DNA of 64,000 nt from Micromonospora sp. C95 (GTDB lineage Bacteria > Actinomycetota > Actinomycetes > Mycobacteriales > Micromonosporaceae). The notes under the pieces are model-generated. The model did not search any database, was not told the DNA's origin, and worked only from the letters and a program-made list of their open reading frames with translations. Location of the stretch: assembly GCF_018070465.1 (NCBI RefSeq), contig NZ_JAGPXT010000002.1, positions 124,001 to 188,000 of the forward strand, written 5' to 3'. Positions 34,620-49,744 of this stretch are shown piece after piece; the stretch's first letter is position 1, and each line of letters starts with the position of its first letter. The position numbers and the translations under genes were made by a program.

Positions 34620-36208
<1,589 letters not shown>

Positions 36209-38440: not shown

Positions 38441-39622
38441 CTATCCGCTGCCGTGGTGACCGGTGGCGTGACTGGTCAACACCACCAAAAGCTCGAATCG
38501 GACGGTGGGGTCGTCCAGGTCGTCGCCGTACAGCTCACGCAGCCGCTTGAGGCGGTAGCTGACCGTCTGCGGGTGCACGAACAGCTCGGTGGCGACCTCG
38601 GCTCGTGAGCCCCAGTGCCGGAGCCAGGCATAGAGCGTCGCCAGCAGATTCTCCCGCTGCGCCGGACGCAGCCGCGCCAGCGGTGCCAGGCGGCGCTCGG
38701 TGAGCACCGCCAACGCCCGCTGTTCGCCGCGCAGGGTCAGCGTGACCAGGTGGTCGTCGACGAAGACCAGGCCGGGCGCGGGTCCGAACAGCCCGGCGGC
38801 CAGCTCGGCGAGCCGGACCGCCGCCGGCACCTGCGGCCAGCCCAGTTCCGGACCGACCACCGCCGGCCGGCCGGCCAACGCCTCGGCCAGTGCGGCACGG
38901 GTCGCCCGGGTACCGGCCCGCAGCAGCAGCACGGCGTCCCGGCCACGCTCGATGACCAGCCCGTCCGGGCCGTACCGGAACCGCGCGTCGCGAGCCTGCT
39001 CCAGCGGCAGCAGTACGGGCACCACCGCGTCCAGGTCCGCCCAGCCGATCCGGGCCGCCGCCGACTCGACGCCGCTGGGCAGCCCGTCGCCGCGCAGCAG
39101 CAACTCGGCGAGGTGGCGACGGCGGTCGCCCTCCCCGGCCTGCTCACGAAGTTGCAGGGCGTACCCGTCGGTGCTCGCCGCGGCCAGTTCGGCGATGTAC
39201 GCGCTCACCGCGTCGGAGAGGTCGATCAGTTCCTCCGGGTCGACCGGACGCAGCCGGGCCAGGGACCGCGACGCCGTACGCAGCAGCAGCCGCGCCGCAG
39301 CCCGGAGCGCGGCCAGCAGCGCCTCCGGCCCCCGGTCCTCGCGGGCCTCGGCGGCGCCCAACCCGACGAACACCTCCCGGAACCGGGGCGGCAGCGCCGG
39401 TTCGCCGGTGCCGACGAGATCGAGGAAGCGGTCGAGCGCCACCTGCACGGCGGTGTGTACGTCCCGGGTGAACTTGTCGTCGGCGATGCCGGCGAACGCC
39501 GGCGTGGCCTCGGTGACGGCGACCGCGACGGCGGCCACCGTGTCCGGCAGCTGCGGGCGCATCGCGGCAGCCAGGTCGGCGGGCAGGTGCTGCCAGGGAG
39601 TCGTGGAGACAGGCGCACTCAC
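38441..39622 (-). CDS. PucR/CdaR-family transcriptional regulator
   Basis: 393 residues from GTG 39622. A helical N-terminal region (about 1-150) and a GGDEF-like, degenerate middle (about 170-300) precede the PucR C-terminal helix-turn-helix: ENLLATLYAWLRHWGSRAEV, then LFVHPQTVSYRLKRLRELYG and DPTVRFELLVVLTSH. Regulators of this family activate catabolic genes for purines, amino acids or sugars and are often next to their targets. Here the gene is divergent from the aldolase-aminotransferase operon with a 151-bp shared promoter region, so that operon is its likely target. Confidence 0.92.
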   Translation of the reverse strand: MSAPVSTTPWQHLPADLAAAMRPQLPDTVAAVAVAVTEATPAFAGIADDKFTRDVHTAVQVALDRFLDLVGTGEPALPPRFREVFVGLGAAEAREDRGPEALLAALRAAARLLLRTASRSLARLRPVDPEELIDLSDAVSAYIAELAAASTDGYALQLREQAGEGDRRRHLAELLLRGDGLPSGVESAAARIGWADLDAVVPVLLPLEQARDARFRYGPDGLVIERGRDAVLLLRAGTRATRAALAEALAGRPAVVGPELGWPQVPAAVRLAELAAGLFGPAPGLVFVDDHLVTLTLRGEQRALAVLTERRLAPLARLRPAQRENLLATLYAWLRHWGSRAEVATELFVHPQTVSYRLKRLRELYGDDLDDPTVRFELLVVLTSHATGHHGSG

Positions 39623-39773
39623 CCGGCGATTTTGTCACGGCGGGATAAGAAGCGCGGCGATTCTCGCTGCCGGCGGAACGGTGTTTCGACCGGCGCGCCC
39701 ACGCGACGATGAACCCGACCGGCCGGACGGGAGGCACCGACCGGCGGCCGACGACCCGACGGAGGAGAACGCC

Positions 39774-42071
39774 GTGCAGCACCGCCTGTCCCGCCAGCAC
39801 GTCGTCGACATGTGCCACACCATGCTCGCCCGGGGCTACCTCAAGGCCACCGAGGGCAACGTGTCGGTGCGGGTGCCCGGCCACCGGCGGTACGCGGTCA
39901 CTCCGAGCAACTACGACTACGACCGGATGCGCGTCGAGGACATCTGCATCGTGGACTTCGACGGCAGGCACCTGCCCGACGACTCCGGTGCCGACCTCAA
40001 GCCGTCCATCGAGTGCGGGATGCACGCGAACATCTACCGCGAGCGGCCGGACGTCAACGCGATCGTGCACACCCACCAGCCGTACGCCTCGGCGTTGGCC
40101 TTCCTGCGCCGGCCGATCCCGGCGCTCACCGACGAGCAGGTGCGCTTCCTCGGCCGTGCGGTGGCGATCATCGACTACGCCCCGTCCGGCACCGGATTCC
40201 TGGCCCGCAACGTGCAGAAGAAGGTGGCCAGCGGCGACAACGCCTTCATCATCGCCAATCACGGGGTGGTCGCCGTCGGCACCGACCCCGACCGGGCGGT
40301 GTTCAACATGGCGCTGCTGGAGAAGGTGTCCATCGCCTACCTGCTGGCGCTGACCAGCGAGGCGGGGAAGATCCACACCATCCCGACCGCGATCCGGGAG
40401 ATCGCCTTCACGAAGCTGCGGGCCGACGAGAAGCGGATCGCCGCGCAGCTGACCGAGGCGGTCGAGCCGCTGCGGGTACCCGCCGACGAGGAACTGCCCA
40501 GCGCCGACGCGGCAGCCGCCGAGGTCGCCGCCGGCCGGACCGCGGACATCACGCCCGGCGCGGTGGACGGTGCCGCGCCCCCGGGCAACGGGACGGACAG
40601 CGATCCGGGCGCCGAGTCGGCCCGGCTCGGCTACGCGATAAGCGAGTATCCCGACGTCGACGACGTGATGCGTCGGCTGAAGGCGCTGACCGCCCAGCCG
40701 CTGCGCGGGCTGCGCCACGACGCGATGCTCGACGTGCTGAACTACTTCGACACCAAGTGCCGCGCCAGCAAGGAGATCACCGACCGGGCGCGGCGACGGA
40801 TCCCCGGTGGGGTACAGCACAACCTGGCGTTCAACTACCCGTTCCCGCTCGCCGTCGACAAGGCCGACGGCGCGTTTCTGGTGGACCGGGACGGCAACAC
40901 GTACATCGACTTCCTCCAGGCCGGCGGGCCGACGATCCTGGGCAGCAACTACGGCCCGGTCAACGAGCGGGTCGCCGAGGTGGTCCGGGACTCCGGCCCG
41001 GTGACCGGGCTGTTCCACGAGTACGAGCTGAAGCTCGCCGAGATCATCCATCGGTTCATGCCGCACGTGGAGATGTACCGGTCGCTCGGCTCGGGCACCG
41101 AGGCGGTGATGGCCGCCGTCCGAGGAGCCCGCGCCTTCACCGGCAAGAAAATGGTGATCAAGATCGGTGGGGCCTACCACGGATGGTCGGACACCATGGT
41201 CTACGGCCTGCGGGTGCCGGGCACGTACCGGATGAACGCCAAGGGCATCCCCTTCGGGGCGACGACCCGCACCCGGGAGGCCTTCCCGCACGACCTCGGG
41301 CAGCTCAAGCGCAAGCTGATCGAGAACCGGCTGCGCGGCGGCACGGCCGCGGTGGTGGTCGAGCCGGTCGGCCCGGAGTCGGGCACCCGGCCGGCGCCGC
41401 GCGACTTCAACGCCCGGGTCCGCGAGCTGTGCGACGAGTTCGGCGCGCTGCTGATCTTCGACGAGGTGGTCACCGGGTTCCGGCTCGGGCTGGGCGGTGC
41501 CGCCGGCTACTTCGGTGTCACCCCCGACCTGACCGTGCTGGGCAAGGCGGTCTCCGGCGGCTACCCGATGGCCGGCGGCGTCGGCGGCCGGGCCGACGTG
41601 ATGGCGGTCTTCGGTTCCGGGCTGGACGGCAGGAGTGGCGCGCACATCCAGGTCGGCGGCACGCTGTCGGCCAACCCGCTGTCCTGCGCGGCCGGCTACT
41701 TCGCCATCGAGGAGATGGCCCGCACCAACGCGCCGGTGATCGCCGGCCGGGCCGGTGACCGGCTGACCCGGGGGCTGCAACGGCTGATCGACTCCTACGG
41801 GCTGCCGTACGTCGCGTACAACCAGGGGTCCATCGTGCACCTGGAGTGCAGCGGCGTGATGCTGTTGGACATGCGCAACCCGGTGAAGCTGCTCAAGGAG
41901 AACAAGGCCCGCAAGCGGCTGATGGAACAGATGGGGGCCGCCTACACCGCGCACGGCATAGTCACCCTGGCCGGCTCGCGGATGTACACGTCGATGGCCG
42001 CCACCGACGAGGTCATCGACGACGCGCTCGCCCGCTTCGACCAGGTCTTCGCGCTCGTCGAGGGGGTCTGA
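39774..42071 (+). CDS. Fused class II aldolase / class III aminotransferase
   Basis: 765 residues from GTG 39774, with GGAGGA seven bases upstream. Residues 1-235 are a class II (FucA-like) aldolase: catalytic Glu80 in PSIECGMHANIYRERPD, zinc ligands His99 and His101 in AIVHTHQPYA, and His163 in ANHGVVAVG. A flexible linker (about 240-285) follows. Residues 290-765 are a class III, glutamate-1-semialdehyde-aminomutase-like PLP enzyme: GGAYHGWSD, LIFDEVVTGFRLG and Lys591 in VLGKAVSGGYPMAGG. The two activities could cleave a phosphorylated sugar and aminate the resulting carbonyl, or act in reverse. The substrate is unknown. An FGGY kinase gene follows after 4 bp. Confidence 0.92.
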   Translation: MQHRLSRQHVVDMCHTMLARGYLKATEGNVSVRVPGHRRYAVTPSNYDYDRMRVEDICIVDFDGRHLPDDSGADLKPSIECGMHANIYRERPDVNAIVHTHQPYASALAFLRRPIPALTDEQVRFLGRAVAIIDYAPSGTGFLARNVQKKVASGDNAFIIANHGVVAVGTDPDRAVFNMALLEKVSIAYLLALTSEAGKIHTIPTAIREIAFTKLRADEKRIAAQLTEAVEPLRVPADEELPSADAAAAEVAAGRTADITPGAVDGAAPPGNGTDSDPGAESARLGYAISEYPDVDDVMRRLKALTAQPLRGLRHDAMLDVLNYFDTKCRASKEITDRARRRIPGGVQHNLAFNYPFPLAVDKADGAFLVDRDGNTYIDFLQAGGPTILGSNYGPVNERVAEVVRDSGPVTGLFHEYELKLAEIIHRFMPHVEMYRSLGSGTEAVMAAVRGARAFTGKKMVIKIGGAYHGWSDTMVYGLRVPGTYRMNAKGIPFGATTRTREAFPHDLGQLKRKLIENRLRGGTAAVVVEPVGPESGTRPAPRDFNARVRELCDEFGALLIFDEVVTGFRLGLGGAAGYFGVTPDLTVLGKAVSGGYPMAGGVGGRADVMAVFGSGLDGRSGAHIQVGGTLSANPLSCAAGYFAIEEMARTNAPVIAGRAGDRLTRGLQRLIDSYGLPYVAYNQGSIVHLECSGVMLLDMRNPVKLLKENKARKRLMEQMGAAYTAHGIVTLAGSRMYTSMAATDEVIDDALARFDQVFALVEGV

Positions 42072-42075
42072 GCCG

Positions 42076-43668
42076 GTGCAGGCCAGCCCGCCGCAGGTCT
42101 TCGCGATCGACCTGGGCACCTCGGGACTGAAGGCCGCGCTGGTCGCCGCCGACGGCACGGTCACCGGCTGGGCCGAGCGGCCGGTTCCGCTGCGGGTGCT
42201 GCCCGGTGGCGGTGCCGAACAGGACCCGCTCGCCTGGTGGACGGCGCTCGGGCAGGTCGCCGCCGACCTGGGCCGGGATCATCCCGAGCAGTTGCGGGCG
42301 GTCGAGGCGGTGTGCGCCTCCACCCAGGGTGAGGGCACCATAGCGGTGGACGCCGCCGGGGATCCGCTGACGCCGTGCATCAGCTGGCTCGACATGCGGG
42401 GCGCGCCGCACCTGCGACGGCAGTTCGGCGGCTTTCCCGCGTACCAGGGGATGTCGGTGCGCCGGATCGGCCGTTGGCTGCGGCTCACCGGCGGCATGCC
42501 CTCCCCGACCGGCAAGGACCCCGCCGCCCACATGCTGTTCGTCCGCGACACCATGCCGCAGGTGTACGCGCGGACGGCGACGTTCCTCAACGTGCTCGAC
42601 TGGATCAACCTGAAGCTCACCGGACGCACGGTGGCCACCGTCGACTCGATCCTGACGTCGTGGGTGACCGACAACCGGCGGCCCGGCGACATCCGCTACT
42701 CCCCCGCCCTGGTCGCCGACAGCGGCATCGAGGCGGACAAGCTGCCGCCGATCGTCTCCTGCACCGAGGTGATCGGCACGTTGACACCGGCCGCCGCCGC
42801 GCACCTGGGGCTGCCCGCGACGGTGCGGGTGGTCGCCGGGGCGATCGACAACACCGCCGCGGCGATCGGCTCCGGCACCACCGGCTACCGGGAGCCGCAC
42901 CTGTACGTCGGCACCTCCTCCTGGATCGCCGCCCACGTACCCGGCAAAAAGACCGACGTCGCCGCCGGCATCGCCTCGGTGCCCTGCGCGGTCGGTGACC
43001 GCTACCTGATGACCGCCCTGCAGGCCACCGCCGGTGCCAACCTGACCTGGCTGCGGGACAAGATCGTGGAGTACGACGACCCGCTGCTCAGCGCCGGTCA
43101 CCTCAGCCGCGACGAGGGCACGATCTTCGACGCCTTCGACGCCATCATCCCGACGGTGCCGCCGGGCGCGAACGGGGTGCTCTACACCCCCTGGCTCTAC
43201 GGCGAACGCGCCCCGGTGGACGACGCCAACCTGCGCGCCGGCTTCTTCAACATCTCTCTCGACACCAACCGCTCCGACCTGCTGCGGGCGGTTTTCGAGG
43301 GGGTGGCGTTCAACACCCGCTGGCTGCTCGGCGCGGTGAACCGGTTCCTCGGCGCGCCGGTCACCTCGATGGCCATCACCGGCGGCGGGGCGCTGTCGGA
43401 CTCGTGGTGCCAGATCTTCGCCGACGTGCTCGGCGTGGAGATTCGCCGCGACGCCCAACCGCTCGCGGTGAACGCCCGGGGTGCCGGCTGGATCGGCGCG
43501 GTCGGCACCGGCCAGCTCACCTTCGCGGACATCCCCGGGCTCATGCGTACCGACCGGATCTTCGTGCCGACCCCCGCGCACCGGGCCGGTTACGACGAGA
43601 TCTTCGACGTCTATCGGACGCTGCACCGGCGGCTGGCCCCGGTCTATCGCCGCCTCAACCGCAGCTGA
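42076..43668 (+). CDS. FGGY-family carbohydrate kinase
   Basis: 530 residues from GTG 42076, starting four bases after the aldolase-aminotransferase stop. The first ATPase-fold motif is VFAIDLGTSGLKAALVAADG and the catalytic region includes CISWLDMRGAPHLRRQFG. Further motifs are GAIDNTAAAIGSGTTG, YVGTSSWIAAHVPGKK, LYGERAPVDDANLRAGFFNI and AITGGGALSDSWCQIFADVL. It resembles xylulose/ribulose-type kinases more than glycerol kinase, and it would supply the phosphorylated sugar to the aldolase. The exact sugar cannot be read from the sequence. Confidence 0.92.
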   Translation: MQASPPQVFAIDLGTSGLKAALVAADGTVTGWAERPVPLRVLPGGGAEQDPLAWWTALGQVAADLGRDHPEQLRAVEAVCASTQGEGTIAVDAAGDPLTPCISWLDMRGAPHLRRQFGGFPAYQGMSVRRIGRWLRLTGGMPSPTGKDPAAHMLFVRDTMPQVYARTATFLNVLDWINLKLTGRTVATVDSILTSWVTDNRRPGDIRYSPALVADSGIEADKLPPIVSCTEVIGTLTPAAAAHLGLPATVRVVAGAIDNTAAAIGSGTTGYREPHLYVGTSSWIAAHVPGKKTDVAAGIASVPCAVGDRYLMTALQATAGANLTWLRDKIVEYDDPLLSAGHLSRDEGTIFDAFDAIIPTVPPGANGVLYTPWLYGERAPVDDANLRAGFFNISLDTNRSDLLRAVFEGVAFNTRWLLGAVNRFLGAPVTSMAITGGGALSDSWCQIFADVLGVEIRRDAQPLAVNARGAGWIGAVGTGQLTFADIPGLMRTDRIFVPTPAHRAGYDEIFDVYRTLHRRLAPVYRRLNRS

Positions 43669-43716
43669 CCTGCCGAAACAGCCACCAACAAGGTCCGGTT
43701 TGGCGAGACTGAGGCC

Positions 43717-44430
43717 ATGGTCGACGTCAGACGGTACGTGGCTGAGTTCATCGGCACCTTCCTTCTGGTCTTCTTCGGCGTGGGCAGCGCCGTCGCGGCC
43801 CGGGTCGACGGCGGCGTGGTGGTGGTCTCGCTGGCGTTCGGGTTCGTCCTGCTCGCGCTGGTCTACACGATCGGGCAGCTCTCCGGCAGTCACGTGAACC
43901 CGGCGGTGACCCTCGGCGTGCTGCTCTCCGGCAAGATCACCGCACTCGGGGCGGTGGTCTACTGGATCGCCCAGTTCGCCGGTGCCGCTGTGGCTTCTCT
44001 GCTGCTCTGGGTGCTGGTCCGCTGGGGAGGGGTGACCGACCAGACCGGTGTGCTGGGTGCCAACGGCTACGGCACCAACATCAACGCCGGTGGCGCGATG
44101 CTGCTTGAGACCGTACTGACCTTCCTCTTCGTCCTGGTCGTGCTCGTGGTGAGCAAGCGCAGCACGGACCTGTCCGGCTTCGCCGGCCTGGCGATCGGGC
44201 TTGCTCTCGGCGTGGCGAACCTGGTCGGCGTCGCGCTGACCGGTGCGGCGGTGAATCCGGCGCGAGCCTTCGGGCCGGCGATCTTCGAAGGTGGCCTCGC
44301 GCTCCGCCAACTCTGGGTGTTCATCGTCTTCCCGCTGCTCGGCGGAGTCCTGGCCGCGCTGGTCGCGCCACTTGTCGAACACGGCTCCGGCGTCACCCGG
44401 GTCGGCACGCCCCGGCCGTCCGGGCGCTGA
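43717..44430 (+). CDS. MIP-family channel, aquaporin type
   Basis: 237 residues with six membrane helices and two half-helices carrying the NPA boxes: GQLSGSHVNPAVTLGVLLSG and LTGAAVNPARAFGPA. The second box reads NPARAFGPA rather than the NPARD of glycerol facilitators, which favours a water channel (AqpZ-like). Its place right after the kinase, on the same strand, leaves open passage of a small polyol. The gap to the kinase is 48 bp, so co-transcription is likely. Confidence 0.92.
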   Translation: MVDVRRYVAEFIGTFLLVFFGVGSAVAARVDGGVVVVSLAFGFVLLALVYTIGQLSGSHVNPAVTLGVLLSGKITALGAVVYWIAQFAGAAVASLLLWVLVRWGGVTDQTGVLGANGYGTNINAGGAMLLETVLTFLFVLVVLVVSKRSTDLSGFAGLAIGLALGVANLVGVALTGAAVNPARAFGPAIFEGGLALRQLWVFIVFPLLGGVLAALVAPLVEHGSGVTRVGTPRPSGR

Positions 44431-48289: not shown

Positions 48290-49744
48290 CTATGAGGTGA
48301 GGCGGAACGTGGCGTCGGCGCGGGCCTGGGCATCGTTGATCGGGTCGAGTCGGAGCTGGTAGTTGTAGTGCCGGACGTAGCGGTCGGGATAGTTGTACGA
48401 GCGGAACGACGACCAGGACGAGTTGGCCAGGCCGGCGACCTGCCGGAAGGTCGCGTCCGCGGCGAAGACCGAGCTACCGTCGTTGGCCGCTAGCACGAAG
48501 TCGAAGCCGTAGTGCCGCAGGTAGTGACCGGGGTAGTTGACCGACTCGAACGACACCGCGCTGGTGTCGGCCAGCCCCGGCACCACCCGGAACTGGGCGT
48601 CCTGCGCCGGGCTGACGTTCGCGTCGATCCGTACGTCGTAGTTGGCGTGCCGCACGTACCGGTCCTGGTGGGTGTACGCCTGGATCCGGTTGGCCGGCGT
48701 GCTGGCGCCCCAGCGCCCCAGCACGGCGCTCTCCTCGGCGGCGGTCAGATTGAGGATCGAGCCGTGCCGCTTGCGGCTGGCACCCAGTTGGTAGTCGGTG
48801 CGGGTCCGGAAGTTGGTGACACTACCCAGGTTGGTGGAGGTGACCGGCAGATAGCCACGCCCGGTGGCGTACTGGTCGAGCCAGAGCGCCCACTCGTTCC
48901 GACCGTTGAACTGCATCCACATCGGCCCTTCGACCACGTTGCCGCCGCCGGTGCCGTTGGAGATGCCGAGGTGGGAGAGGTTGCCCAACGTCGTCCACGA
49001 GCCGAGGATCGAGTTGCTGCCCTCGATGGTGATGTGCCCGTCGGCCGACGCCCGGTAGTAGCGGTAACCGCCGACGGACCCGGGTACCTCGACGATCTGG
49101 GTGTCGATGATGCCCTGGCCGCCGCCGGGTCGCTCGATGTAGAGCTGGGGCGCGGTGAAGCTACGGAAGTCACTGGTCCGGACGTACCAGATGCGGTGCT
49201 TGGTCACGCCGTCGCGCAGCGAGTTCGTCGCCCAGTAGACGACGTAGTCACCGGTCGCGGCGTTGTAGATGGCTTCCGGTGCCCAGGCGTTGCCGGCCCC
49301 GGGGATGGCGCCCGCGACGTTGATCAGCCAGGGAGCGGACCAGTTCACCAGGTCGCGGGACTCCCACACCACGAGCGACCTGCTACCCCGGTTCGCCGCG
49401 TCGTTCCACGAGGTGCCGCTGGCGATCCGCAGGTCGGTGGCGACGATCCAGTACCGGTCGCCGGAGGGTGATCGGACGATGGAGGGGTCACGCACCCCCC
49501 GGGTGCCGATCGTGGACAGCAGCACGGGTGCGCCGTTGTTCAGATCGCGCCAGGTCAACCCGTCCCGGCTGTGCGCGAGGTAGACCTGCTCGCCGGTGGC
49601 CGACTCGCCGGTGAAGTGCGCCATCAGGTAGCCGGTGAACGGATCGAGCGCGGCGGCCTCGGCACGCGGCGCCTGCACCGCCGGCAGCAACAGCAGGCAC
49701 AGTGTGGCGAGCAGGGCGCTGACCCTGGTCAGGACTCTGGACAT
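48290..49744 (-). CDS. Secreted GH43 glycosidase with AbfB (CBM42) domain
   Basis: 484 residues. The signal peptide ends near AEA (30). The five-bladed GH43 domain (about 35-325) contains FTGYLMAHFTGE, VRDPSIVRSPSGDRYWIVAT, NAWAPEAIYNAATGDYVVYW and NVVEGPMWMQFNGRNEWALW, the last with a candidate general-acid Glu. The C-terminal 140 residues are an AbfB beta-trefoil, with repeats such as QDRYVRHANYDVRIDA and YPDRYVRHYNYQLRLD that bind arabinose side chains. It probably removes arabinofuranosyl groups from xylan or arabinan and complements the GH11 enzyme. A LacI-type palindrome lies 30 bp before the start. Confidence 0.92.
   Translation of the reverse strand: MSRVLTRVSALLATLCLLLLPAVQAPRAEAAALDPFTGYLMAHFTGESATGEQVYLAHSRDGLTWRDLNNGAPVLLSTIGTRGVRDPSIVRSPSGDRYWIVATDLRIASGTSWNDAANRGSRSLVVWESRDLVNWSAPWLINVAGAIPGAGNAWAPEAIYNAATGDYVVYWATNSLRDGVTKHRIWYVRTSDFRSFTAPQLYIERPGGGQGIIDTQIVEVPGSVGGYRYYRASADGHITIEGSNSILGSWTTLGNLSHLGISNGTGGGNVVEGPMWMQFNGRNEWALWLDQYATGRGYLPVTSTNLGSVTNFRTRTDYQLGASRKRHGSILNLTAAEESAVLGRWGASTPANRIQAYTHQDRYVRHANYDVRIDANVSPAQDAQFRVVPGLADTSAVSFESVNYPGHYLRHYGFDFVLAANDGSSVFAADATFRQVAGLANSSWSSFRSYNYPDRYVRHYNYQLRLDPINDAQARADATFRLTS

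Follow-up and report, generated by a model that had tools for sequence, protein, structure and literature searches.

A conserved class II aldolase/class III aminotransferase fusion of Actinomycetota and its possible role in the breakdown of an amino alcohol

A 64,000-nucleotide stretch of the Micromonospora sp. C95 genome (contig NZ_JAGPXT010000002.1, positions 124,001–188,000; this whole stretch is the window, and positions below refer to it) carries a gene in which a class II aldolase is fused to a class III aminotransferase. The reading frame starts from GTG at position 39774, with a Shine-Dalgarno-like GGAGGAGAA ahead of it, and ends at 42071. Pfam finds Aldolase_II (8.7e-50) and Aminotran_3 (1.9e-50) together in the one chain of 765 residues. 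A first-pass annotation, made from the DNA letters, had described a zinc aldolase and a pyridoxal phosphate (PLP) aminotransferase in one polypeptide, and Glu80, His99, His101, His163 and Lys591 stand at exactly the numbers it gave, counted from the GTG start; Asp563 can be added to them. The kinase that it placed four bases past the fusion is an FGGY kinase starting at 42076, and its divergent PucR-type regulator is a minus-strand protein with an HTH_30 domain (Table 1). Among the NCBIfam matches listed (for the fusion, the best 25 of 97), none of the four window proteins passed a curated cut-off. Judged from sequence, each enzyme belongs to a known superfamily but falls outside every narrower family tried. 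The AlphaFold model of the fusion is poor (mean predicted local distance difference test score 53.2, predicted template modelling score 0.37), with a good aldolase half and a bad aminotransferase half.

Table 1. Features of the locus, in window positions.
Feature	Position	Strand	Evidence
PucR-type transcriptional regulator, HTH_30 at the C-terminus, divergent from the operon	38441..39622	-	Pfam HTH_30 1.2e-19
Operator-like imperfect inverted repeat between regulator and fusion (putative site)	39631..39648		Upstream alignment of Micromonosporaceae loci
Class II aldolase/class III aminotransferase fusion, 765 aa	39774..42071	+	E80, H99, H101, H163, D563, K591
Aldolase_II domain	39795..40331	+	Pfam PF00596, P0001 residues 36-214
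Inter-domain linker rich in Ala/Gly/Pro	40464..40634	+	Sequence; low-confidence stretch in AlphaFold model
Aminotransferase class III domain, glutamate-1-semialdehyde aminomutase-like subfamily	40839..41963	+	Pfam PF00202, P0001 residues 384-758; nearest solved structures are glutamate-1-semialdehyde aminomutases
FGGY-family carbohydrate kinase, 4 bases past the fusion stop	42076..43668	+	Pfam FGGY_N + FGGY_C
Aquaporin (MIP), 48 bases past the kinase, probably incidental	43717..44430	+	Pfam MIP 2.5e-49

The first-pass annotation had suggested a survey of the fusion and its neighbours, and 83 loci were compared: the best 80 of 258 genome-contig loci, two plasmid loci and the window. The aldolase is absent within the contig in two of them, which leaves 81 testable for fusion. 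The two genes are fused in frame in 63 of the 81, all from Actinomycetota, and unfused in 18; Chloroflexota, Burkholderia and Butyrivibrio carry aldolase, aminotransferase and kinase as an unfused trio with the genes close together. The hosts of the best 80 loci are Micromonosporaceae, Kineosporiaceae, Nocardioidaceae, Cellulomonadaceae, Propionibacteriaceae, Streptosporangiaceae, Thermoleophilia and Chloroflexota. Over the aminotransferase, identity is 92–98% in the 20 nearest loci (Micromonospora and relatives), 66.5% in the plasmid relative from Burkholderia ambifaria and 58.5% in that from Butyrivibrio fibrisolvens. A maximum-likelihood tree was built from 42 chosen rows; in it one branch parts the fused from the unfused sequences with support 96/93, and the Burkholderia and Butyrivibrio rows form long branches. 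Thus a single fusion event is enough, and the recurrence of the same in-frame fusion in 63 of 81 loci shows that it is neither chance nor an assembly accident. With the fusion as tblastn query, 15 plasmid records matched at E<=1e-50. Two are true relatives; the remaining 13 matched at 33–38% and are hemL where annotated. There was no match among viral contigs. Among the 296 class genomes sampled, the fusion was found at E<=1e-60 in the window genome alone, a lower bound because three candidates were scored per genome.

The aldolase half retains its catalytic apparatus. E80 and the zinc histidines H99, H101 and H163 are unchanged in 80 of 80 aldolase sequences, and on these metal and catalytic residues the domain is, as far as sequence tells, a member of the class II FucA/AraD superfamily. 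The known enzymes that it resembles in fold family, zinc histidines and catalytic glutamate are the L-fuculose-1-phosphate and ribulose-1-phosphate aldolases (FucA, class II). Its best PDB matches are FucA structures. Its top NCBIfam aldolase model among the matches listed is ribulose-1-phosphate aldolase, at 122.8 bits against a cut-off of 300, and the FucA equivalogs failed as well (105.4 bits for a cut-off of 264, 104.9 for one of 308). The FucA residues T43-G44 and S71-S72, which we take to be phosphate-contact positions, and Tyr113, which we take to be catalytic, were mapped onto the family by sequence alignment; the G44, S72 and Tyr113 positions differ. The position of G44 holds Asn in 72 of the 80 aldolases, Asp in four, Ser in two, and Ala and Gly in one each; that of S72 holds Ile in 60, Val in 19 and Ser in one, the sole Gly and the sole Ser both coming from Butyrivibrio. 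The S71 position is Ser in 79 of 80. The Tyr113 position is Asp in 78 of 80, inside a conserved DEQ-R-[FY]LG motif. By these residues and by the NCBIfam scores the domain appears to lie outside FucA proper, from which the window protein also differs in its fusion to an aminotransferase. The genome has a second, unfused class II aldolase outside the window (G000:C12:313883-314416); by eye it adjoins kinase-like and substrate-binding-protein-like open reading frames (ORFs), resembling an ordinary sugar operon.

In the aminotransferase half, the PLP lysine K591 and the aspartate D563, facing N1 of PLP, are invariant in an alignment of 83 sequences, and so are R539 and R736 (gaps not counted in either case). 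The lysine and aspartate place the domain, on sequence grounds, in class III. Neither half is visibly inactive by its residues, in keeping with the first-pass description. The nearest NCBIfam family among the matches listed is glutamate-1-semialdehyde (GSA) 2,1-aminomutase (HemL), which is nearest by PDB too and shares the PLP lysine and aspartate. The window enzyme, unlike it, scores far under the cut-offs (269.2 bits against 398 for the GSA aminomutase family and 249 against 527.3 for hemL) and has the invariant R539 and R736 and an invariant PGGVQHNLAFN motif. GSA aminomutase presumably has PGGVNSPVR at that place, with a carboxylate-binding Arg; the replacement is expected if the amine substrate is no amino acid.

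Two other aminotransferases deserve comparison. FumI, the aminopentol aminotransferase of fumonisin detoxification, presumably deaminates a sphingoid-like amine, and we know of no aldolase or kinase partner for it. It too is of class III, and its structure (PDB 6hbs) was matched at 3.9e-23, but the match in sequence is a distant one. RtxA of Bradyrhizobium elkanii is a two-domain enzyme whose N-terminal domain, according to PMC3222319, converts dihydroxyacetone phosphate to serinol phosphate. The likeness to our fusion, a two-domain aminotransferase enzyme, is one of description; RtxA is biosynthetic, and its partner domain is sulfhydrylase-like and no aldolase.

The third member of the trio is judged an FGGY kinase by its FGGY_N and FGGY_C domains and by D258, presumably the FGGY catalytic Asp, which is invariant in a 72-sequence alignment (gaps not counted). 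Its closest NCBIfam model is xylulokinase, although XylB failed at 237.8 bits against a cut-off of 380.25. An uninterrupted kinase match, 400 aa or longer, is present in 72 of the 83 loci. Three loci (L031, L032 and L038; two Kineosporia and one metagenome-assembled genome) have no adjacent FGGY kinase. In these three a small gene of one cluster lies beside PucR, and the one scanned (L032) encodes a P-loop AAA_33 protein, a possible replacement kinase where no FGGY kinase is adjacent. In the single Kineosporia genome that was searched, an FGGY kinase with 41% identity to that of Burkholderia lies elsewhere. The first-pass annotation had also listed the aquaporin, which is indeed present after the kinase, but as a conserved partner it did not hold up. 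By tblastn, four of the 83 loci have a homologue past the kinase; counted over the 69 loci in which a kinase match is followed by more than 0.8 kb of sequence, the number is again four. The aquaporin was therefore rejected as part of the pathway. Its second NPA box reads NPARA, which we take to be the water-channel pattern.

In 56 of the 83 loci, the window included, tblastn places a divergent homologue of PucR no more than about 210 bases from where the aldolase starts. Two more loci have a PucR match farther away, and in 25 none was found at E<=1e-20. The Chloroflexota are among these 25, and most of them carry a cluster of short divergent genes in its place, of which the scanned one is of the TetR family. 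In Micromonosporaceae loci the region between PucR and fusion holds a conserved block with an imperfect inverted repeat. With up to three mismatches allowed, the window copy of the repeat is the lone match in the window (0.06 expected), and with up to two it is the lone match in its genome. A slightly looser operator pattern is matched exactly in 18 of 112 loci, three of the 18 being slices of the window's own place. Since no second operator-like site turns up in the genome at that setting, the unit looks self-contained, which suggests that PucR and the repeat form a putative local switch.

The partner that recurs near the trio in relatives is a protein of the major facilitator superfamily (MFS) of about 405 aa, found at E<=1e-15 in 26 of the 83 loci: 15 of 16 Chloroflexota and 11 Actinomycetota. 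The sixteenth Chloroflexota contig stops just past the aminotransferase. When one of these proteins was compared with solved structures by phmmer, it matched FLVCR2 at 3.3e-43 and FLVCR1 at 7.2e-40, with the next MFS protein at 8.5e-7; a 12-row profile gave 2.5e-49 for FLVCR1 against 3.5e-7 for the next non-FLVCR match. By sequence the MFS partner is thus clearly homologous to FLVCR1/2 (SLC49). FLVCR1/2 carry choline and ethanolamine, the amine being contacted by W125 and Y349 and the hydroxyl by Q214 and Q471, according to the excerpt of PMC11168923. In all 12 aligned bacterial proteins, chosen from the 26, the FLVCR1 residues W125, Q214, F348 and Q471 are kept and Y349 is Asn. Over 30 choline-site rows from 27 distinct places the Trp is found in 30, and the Y349 position never holds Tyr (Asn 27, Leu 1, Ile 2). 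The bacterial partner appears to keep most choline-contact residues; unlike FLVCR1/2, it has Y349 replaced, mostly by Asn. On this resemblance it likely moves an amino alcohol. FLVCR-like genes occur at E<=1e-40 in 7 of the 296 class genomes, none of which had the fusion in our lower-bound search, and in 10 of 49 host genomes, seven of the ten being those with the gene near the trio. The protein at L082:11505-12740 and its relatives form a bacterial branch of the FLVCR/SLC49 transporters; the excerpt of PMC13160678 makes no mention of prokaryotic FLVCR proteins.

The two plasmid outliers offer clues of another kind. The Burkholderia gene order is TetR, kinase, aldolase, aminotransferase, a second aldolase-like protein, a short-chain dehydrogenase/reductase (SDR) and an aldehyde dehydrogenase (ALDH). 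The second aldolase-like protein, directly past the aminotransferase (L004:13438-14085), keeps FDEQVRHLGR and has lost the HTH metal-binding histidines; it is possibly a non-catalytic partner subunit. The ALDH lies about 1.6 kb past the aminotransferase in Burkholderia and about 5.3 kb past it in Butyrivibrio. Among the PDB entries that both ALDHs match at E<=1e-60 are class 3 enzymes, including fatty aldehyde dehydrogenase, and the top matches are 6k0z, named aldehyde dehydrogenase only, and benzaldehyde dehydrogenase. ALDH3 enzymes favour hydrophobic aldehydes. By these top matches the aldehyde is likely to be hydrophobic, though a long chain is not implied. An ORF of 83 residues adjoins the Burkholderia ALDH and falls in the Pfam family "2-hydroxy-palmitic acid dioxygenase Mpo1-like" (2.8e-23). 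Mpo1 acts in phytosphingosine breakdown. Matches to the Burkholderia Mpo1-like gene occur in 13 of 72,556 plasmid records. At NZ_CP152372.1:13189-17139, an AraC regulator, an NAD(P)-binding protein, an SDR and a full-length Mpo1-like gene lie in a row.

From the domains, residues, gene order, conservation and partner genes that are observed, we infer the reactions, their order and the substrate, and tentatively favour, at less than even confidence, a PucR-flanked operon that degrades an amino alcohol with several hydroxyl groups. It is the transporter in one set of loci, the ALDH in another and the unusual motif on the amine side that point to an amino alcohol as the input. The self-contained look of the unit was counted on the same side. 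The aminotransferase would take off the 2-amino group to give a 1,3,4-trihydroxy-2-ketone, that is, a ketose. The zinc aldolase would then break the C3–C4 bond of this ketose to give a three-carbon ketone plus an aldehyde, and the FGGY kinase would route the three-carbon part to glycolysis as dihydroxyacetone phosphate, acting either on the C1 hydroxyl of the substrate beforehand or on the released dihydroxyacetone. In both kinase orders the aminotransferase and aldolase steps can be consecutive, which fits the fusion. An aldolase working after the kinase would be expected to bind a phosphate. Because the FucA-type phosphate site is altered, the order with the kinase last, in which free dihydroxyacetone is released first, has to be taken seriously. 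In some relatives the FLVCR-like transporter may import the amino alcohol, and in two others an ALDH3 may oxidise the released aldehyde. The whole is probably a catabolic module of known folds that has not been described: as the first-pass annotation had held for the fusion, no pathway with this aldolase, aminotransferase and kinase set was found in the open-access literature searched.

Our leading guess for the amino alcohol is a phytosphingosine-like long-chain base, a 2-amino-1,3,4-triol that would yield a long-chain aldehyde. The C3/C4 configuration of D-ribo-phytosphingosine is that of D-ribulose, D-erythro, and this, together with the aldolase being nearest to ribulose-1-phosphate aldolase, was counted for such a substrate. 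About half of the likelihood given to an amino alcohol goes to sphingoid bases, so that this narrower version is itself rather doubtful. The same doubt attaches to its full form, a bacterial phytosphingosine breakdown without sphingosine-phosphate lyase, in which the fused aminotransferase and aldolase would produce an aldehyde of about C15, served by the FGGY kinase and, in relatives, by an FLVCR homologue importing the base. In yeast phytosphingosine degradation (Lcb4, Dpl1, Hfd1, Mpo1) there are likewise a kinase, a C-C cleavage to an aldehyde, an ALDH3-type enzyme and Mpo1, all with counterparts by function or by family in the Burkholderia cluster. It differs in using a PLP lyase in place of the transamination and retro-aldol cleavage proposed here, and the other loci have no Mpo1-like gene and, all but Butyrivibrio, no ALDH. 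No sphingoid breakdown by these enzymes was found in the open-access literature searched; in the excerpt of PMC13256967, phytosphingosine appears for Burkholderia only as one metabolite of a metabolome table.

Several observations weigh against the amino-alcohol reading or its sphingoid version. A 1-phosphate substrate is made less likely by the changed phosphate site of the aldolase, and the kinase is nearer to xylulokinase than to glycerol kinase. The ALDH was found by tblastn in only 2 of 83 loci and the Mpo1-like gene in 1. The latter is convergent and abuts an IS5 element, and a second, full-length Mpo1-like gene lies 44 kb off on the same plasmid, next to genes for AraC, NAD(P)-binding and SDR proteins; the placement of the first is thus possibly due to chance, and adjacency by itself counts for little. 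The Butyrivibrio ALDH is separated from the aminotransferase by an IS66 element and a cobyric acid synthase gene on the opposite strand. The transporter was never found in one locus with the ALDH or Mpo1-like gene (0 of 26 transporter loci by tblastn), and no FLVCR-like gene was found in the Burkholderia and Butyrivibrio loci or, at E<=1e-20, on any plasmid record. The genome of the window has no FLVCR-like gene in the 296-genome search and no Mpo1-like gene, and its best match to the Burkholderia ALDH (2.3e-61) has 34% identity; nor does an FLVCR-like gene occur in any of the Micromonospora and Actinoplanes hosts within the set of 49. The W125 and Q214 equivalents are kept in 30 of 30 bacterial rows, operon or background alike. 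At the Q471 position, Asn is found in those background proteins that extend to it; four operon-near proteins from a divergent branch (L027, L028, L030, L055) have it too. No ceramidase is among 40 neighbour protein entries scanned. To our knowledge, no member of the family has any biochemistry behind it.

Some of these points sit well with the same three steps acting on a small water-soluble amino polyol, such as an aminodeoxy alditol or a serinol derivative, with no sphingolipid link. This alternative takes up the other half of the likelihood of amino-alcohol breakdown and is as doubtful as the sphingoid version. In 81 of the 83 loci there is no ALDH or Mpo1-like gene of the kind described, the genome of the window lacks both the Mpo1-like gene and a close match to the Burkholderia ALDH, and the FLVCR pocket is suited to small amino alcohols, in the excerpt of PMC11168923. 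The ALDH3 and Mpo1-like genes of the two outliers tell against it. No abundant natural amino polyol of the kind is known to us. The first-pass annotation had put the steps in another order: phosphorylation of a ketose, cleavage to a three-carbon phosphate, here taken as dihydroxyacetone phosphate, and an aldehyde, and amination of the aldehyde, to an amine or amino alcohol, by the fused aminotransferase. That proposal stands insofar as the three enzymes look catalytically intact and travel together. Kinase/aldolase pairs for fuculose and ribulose are textbook knowledge, the xylulokinase likeness agrees with a ketose, and the SDR genes beside kinase and aminotransferase in Burkholderia (L004) and Nocardioides (L030) are potential polyol dehydrogenases that could feed one. 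A fusion could channel the reactive aldehyde between the two domains, and since it fits any order with consecutive aldolase and aminotransferase steps, it fits this one too. The comparative context disfavours the order, however: the recurrent transporter is FLVCR-like and no sugar transporter, the ALDHs of Burkholderia and Butyrivibrio would oxidise the aldehyde rather than leave it for amination, the aquaporin is not conserved, and the aldolase phosphate site is altered. We consider the ketose route unlikely.

A biosynthetic direction, in which the aldolase would join a three-carbon ketone donor to an aldehyde, the aminotransferase would aminate the product to an amino polyol and the kinase would phosphorylate it for a specialised metabolite or lipid head group, is also improbable. 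Aldolase and aminotransferase would be consecutive in this direction too, and many hosts belong to genera reputed for natural products (Micromonospora, Actinoplanes). Yet no biosynthetic neighbour recurs among the part of the neighbours scanned, the trio is common to Chloroflexota and Butyrivibrio, and the divergent regulator and FLVCR-like transporter are a better fit to nutrient use. That the two domains have unrelated jobs and were joined without meaning for a pathway is very hard to credit: fusions can arise by chance, but here Chloroflexota, Burkholderia and Butyrivibrio keep the same trio together as separate genes, and one fused group retains its catalytic residues.

If amino-alcohol breakdown is right, a trio of Actinomycetota, Chloroflexota, a Burkholderia and a Butyrivibrio gains a testable function, which would be the utilisation of amino alcohols, plant sphingolipid bases perhaps among them, in habitats like soil and rumen. 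The bacterial relatives of human FLVCR1/2 would gain a pathway context, and the aldolase-aminotransferase pair might be useful for amino polyol production.

The 40 neighbour protein entries scanned with Pfam are part of all neighbours and include one duplicate and two trio kinases. They contain a polysaccharide deacetylase (one locus), glycoside hydrolases GH31 and GH1 (one locus), a histidine kinase, RtcB, ILVD and others. RtcB, from a cluster of two loci of which one was scanned, and a cystathionine-lyase-like gene seen by eye in two Thermoleophilia loci were considered as substrate clues and judged local. An Amidase-family gene lies about 7 kb from the Burkholderia cluster. In the window, the region is flanked on the minus strand by genes that by eye resemble a GH11 xylanase with a binding module (34620-35651) and a GH43-type arabinan-active enzyme (48290-49744).

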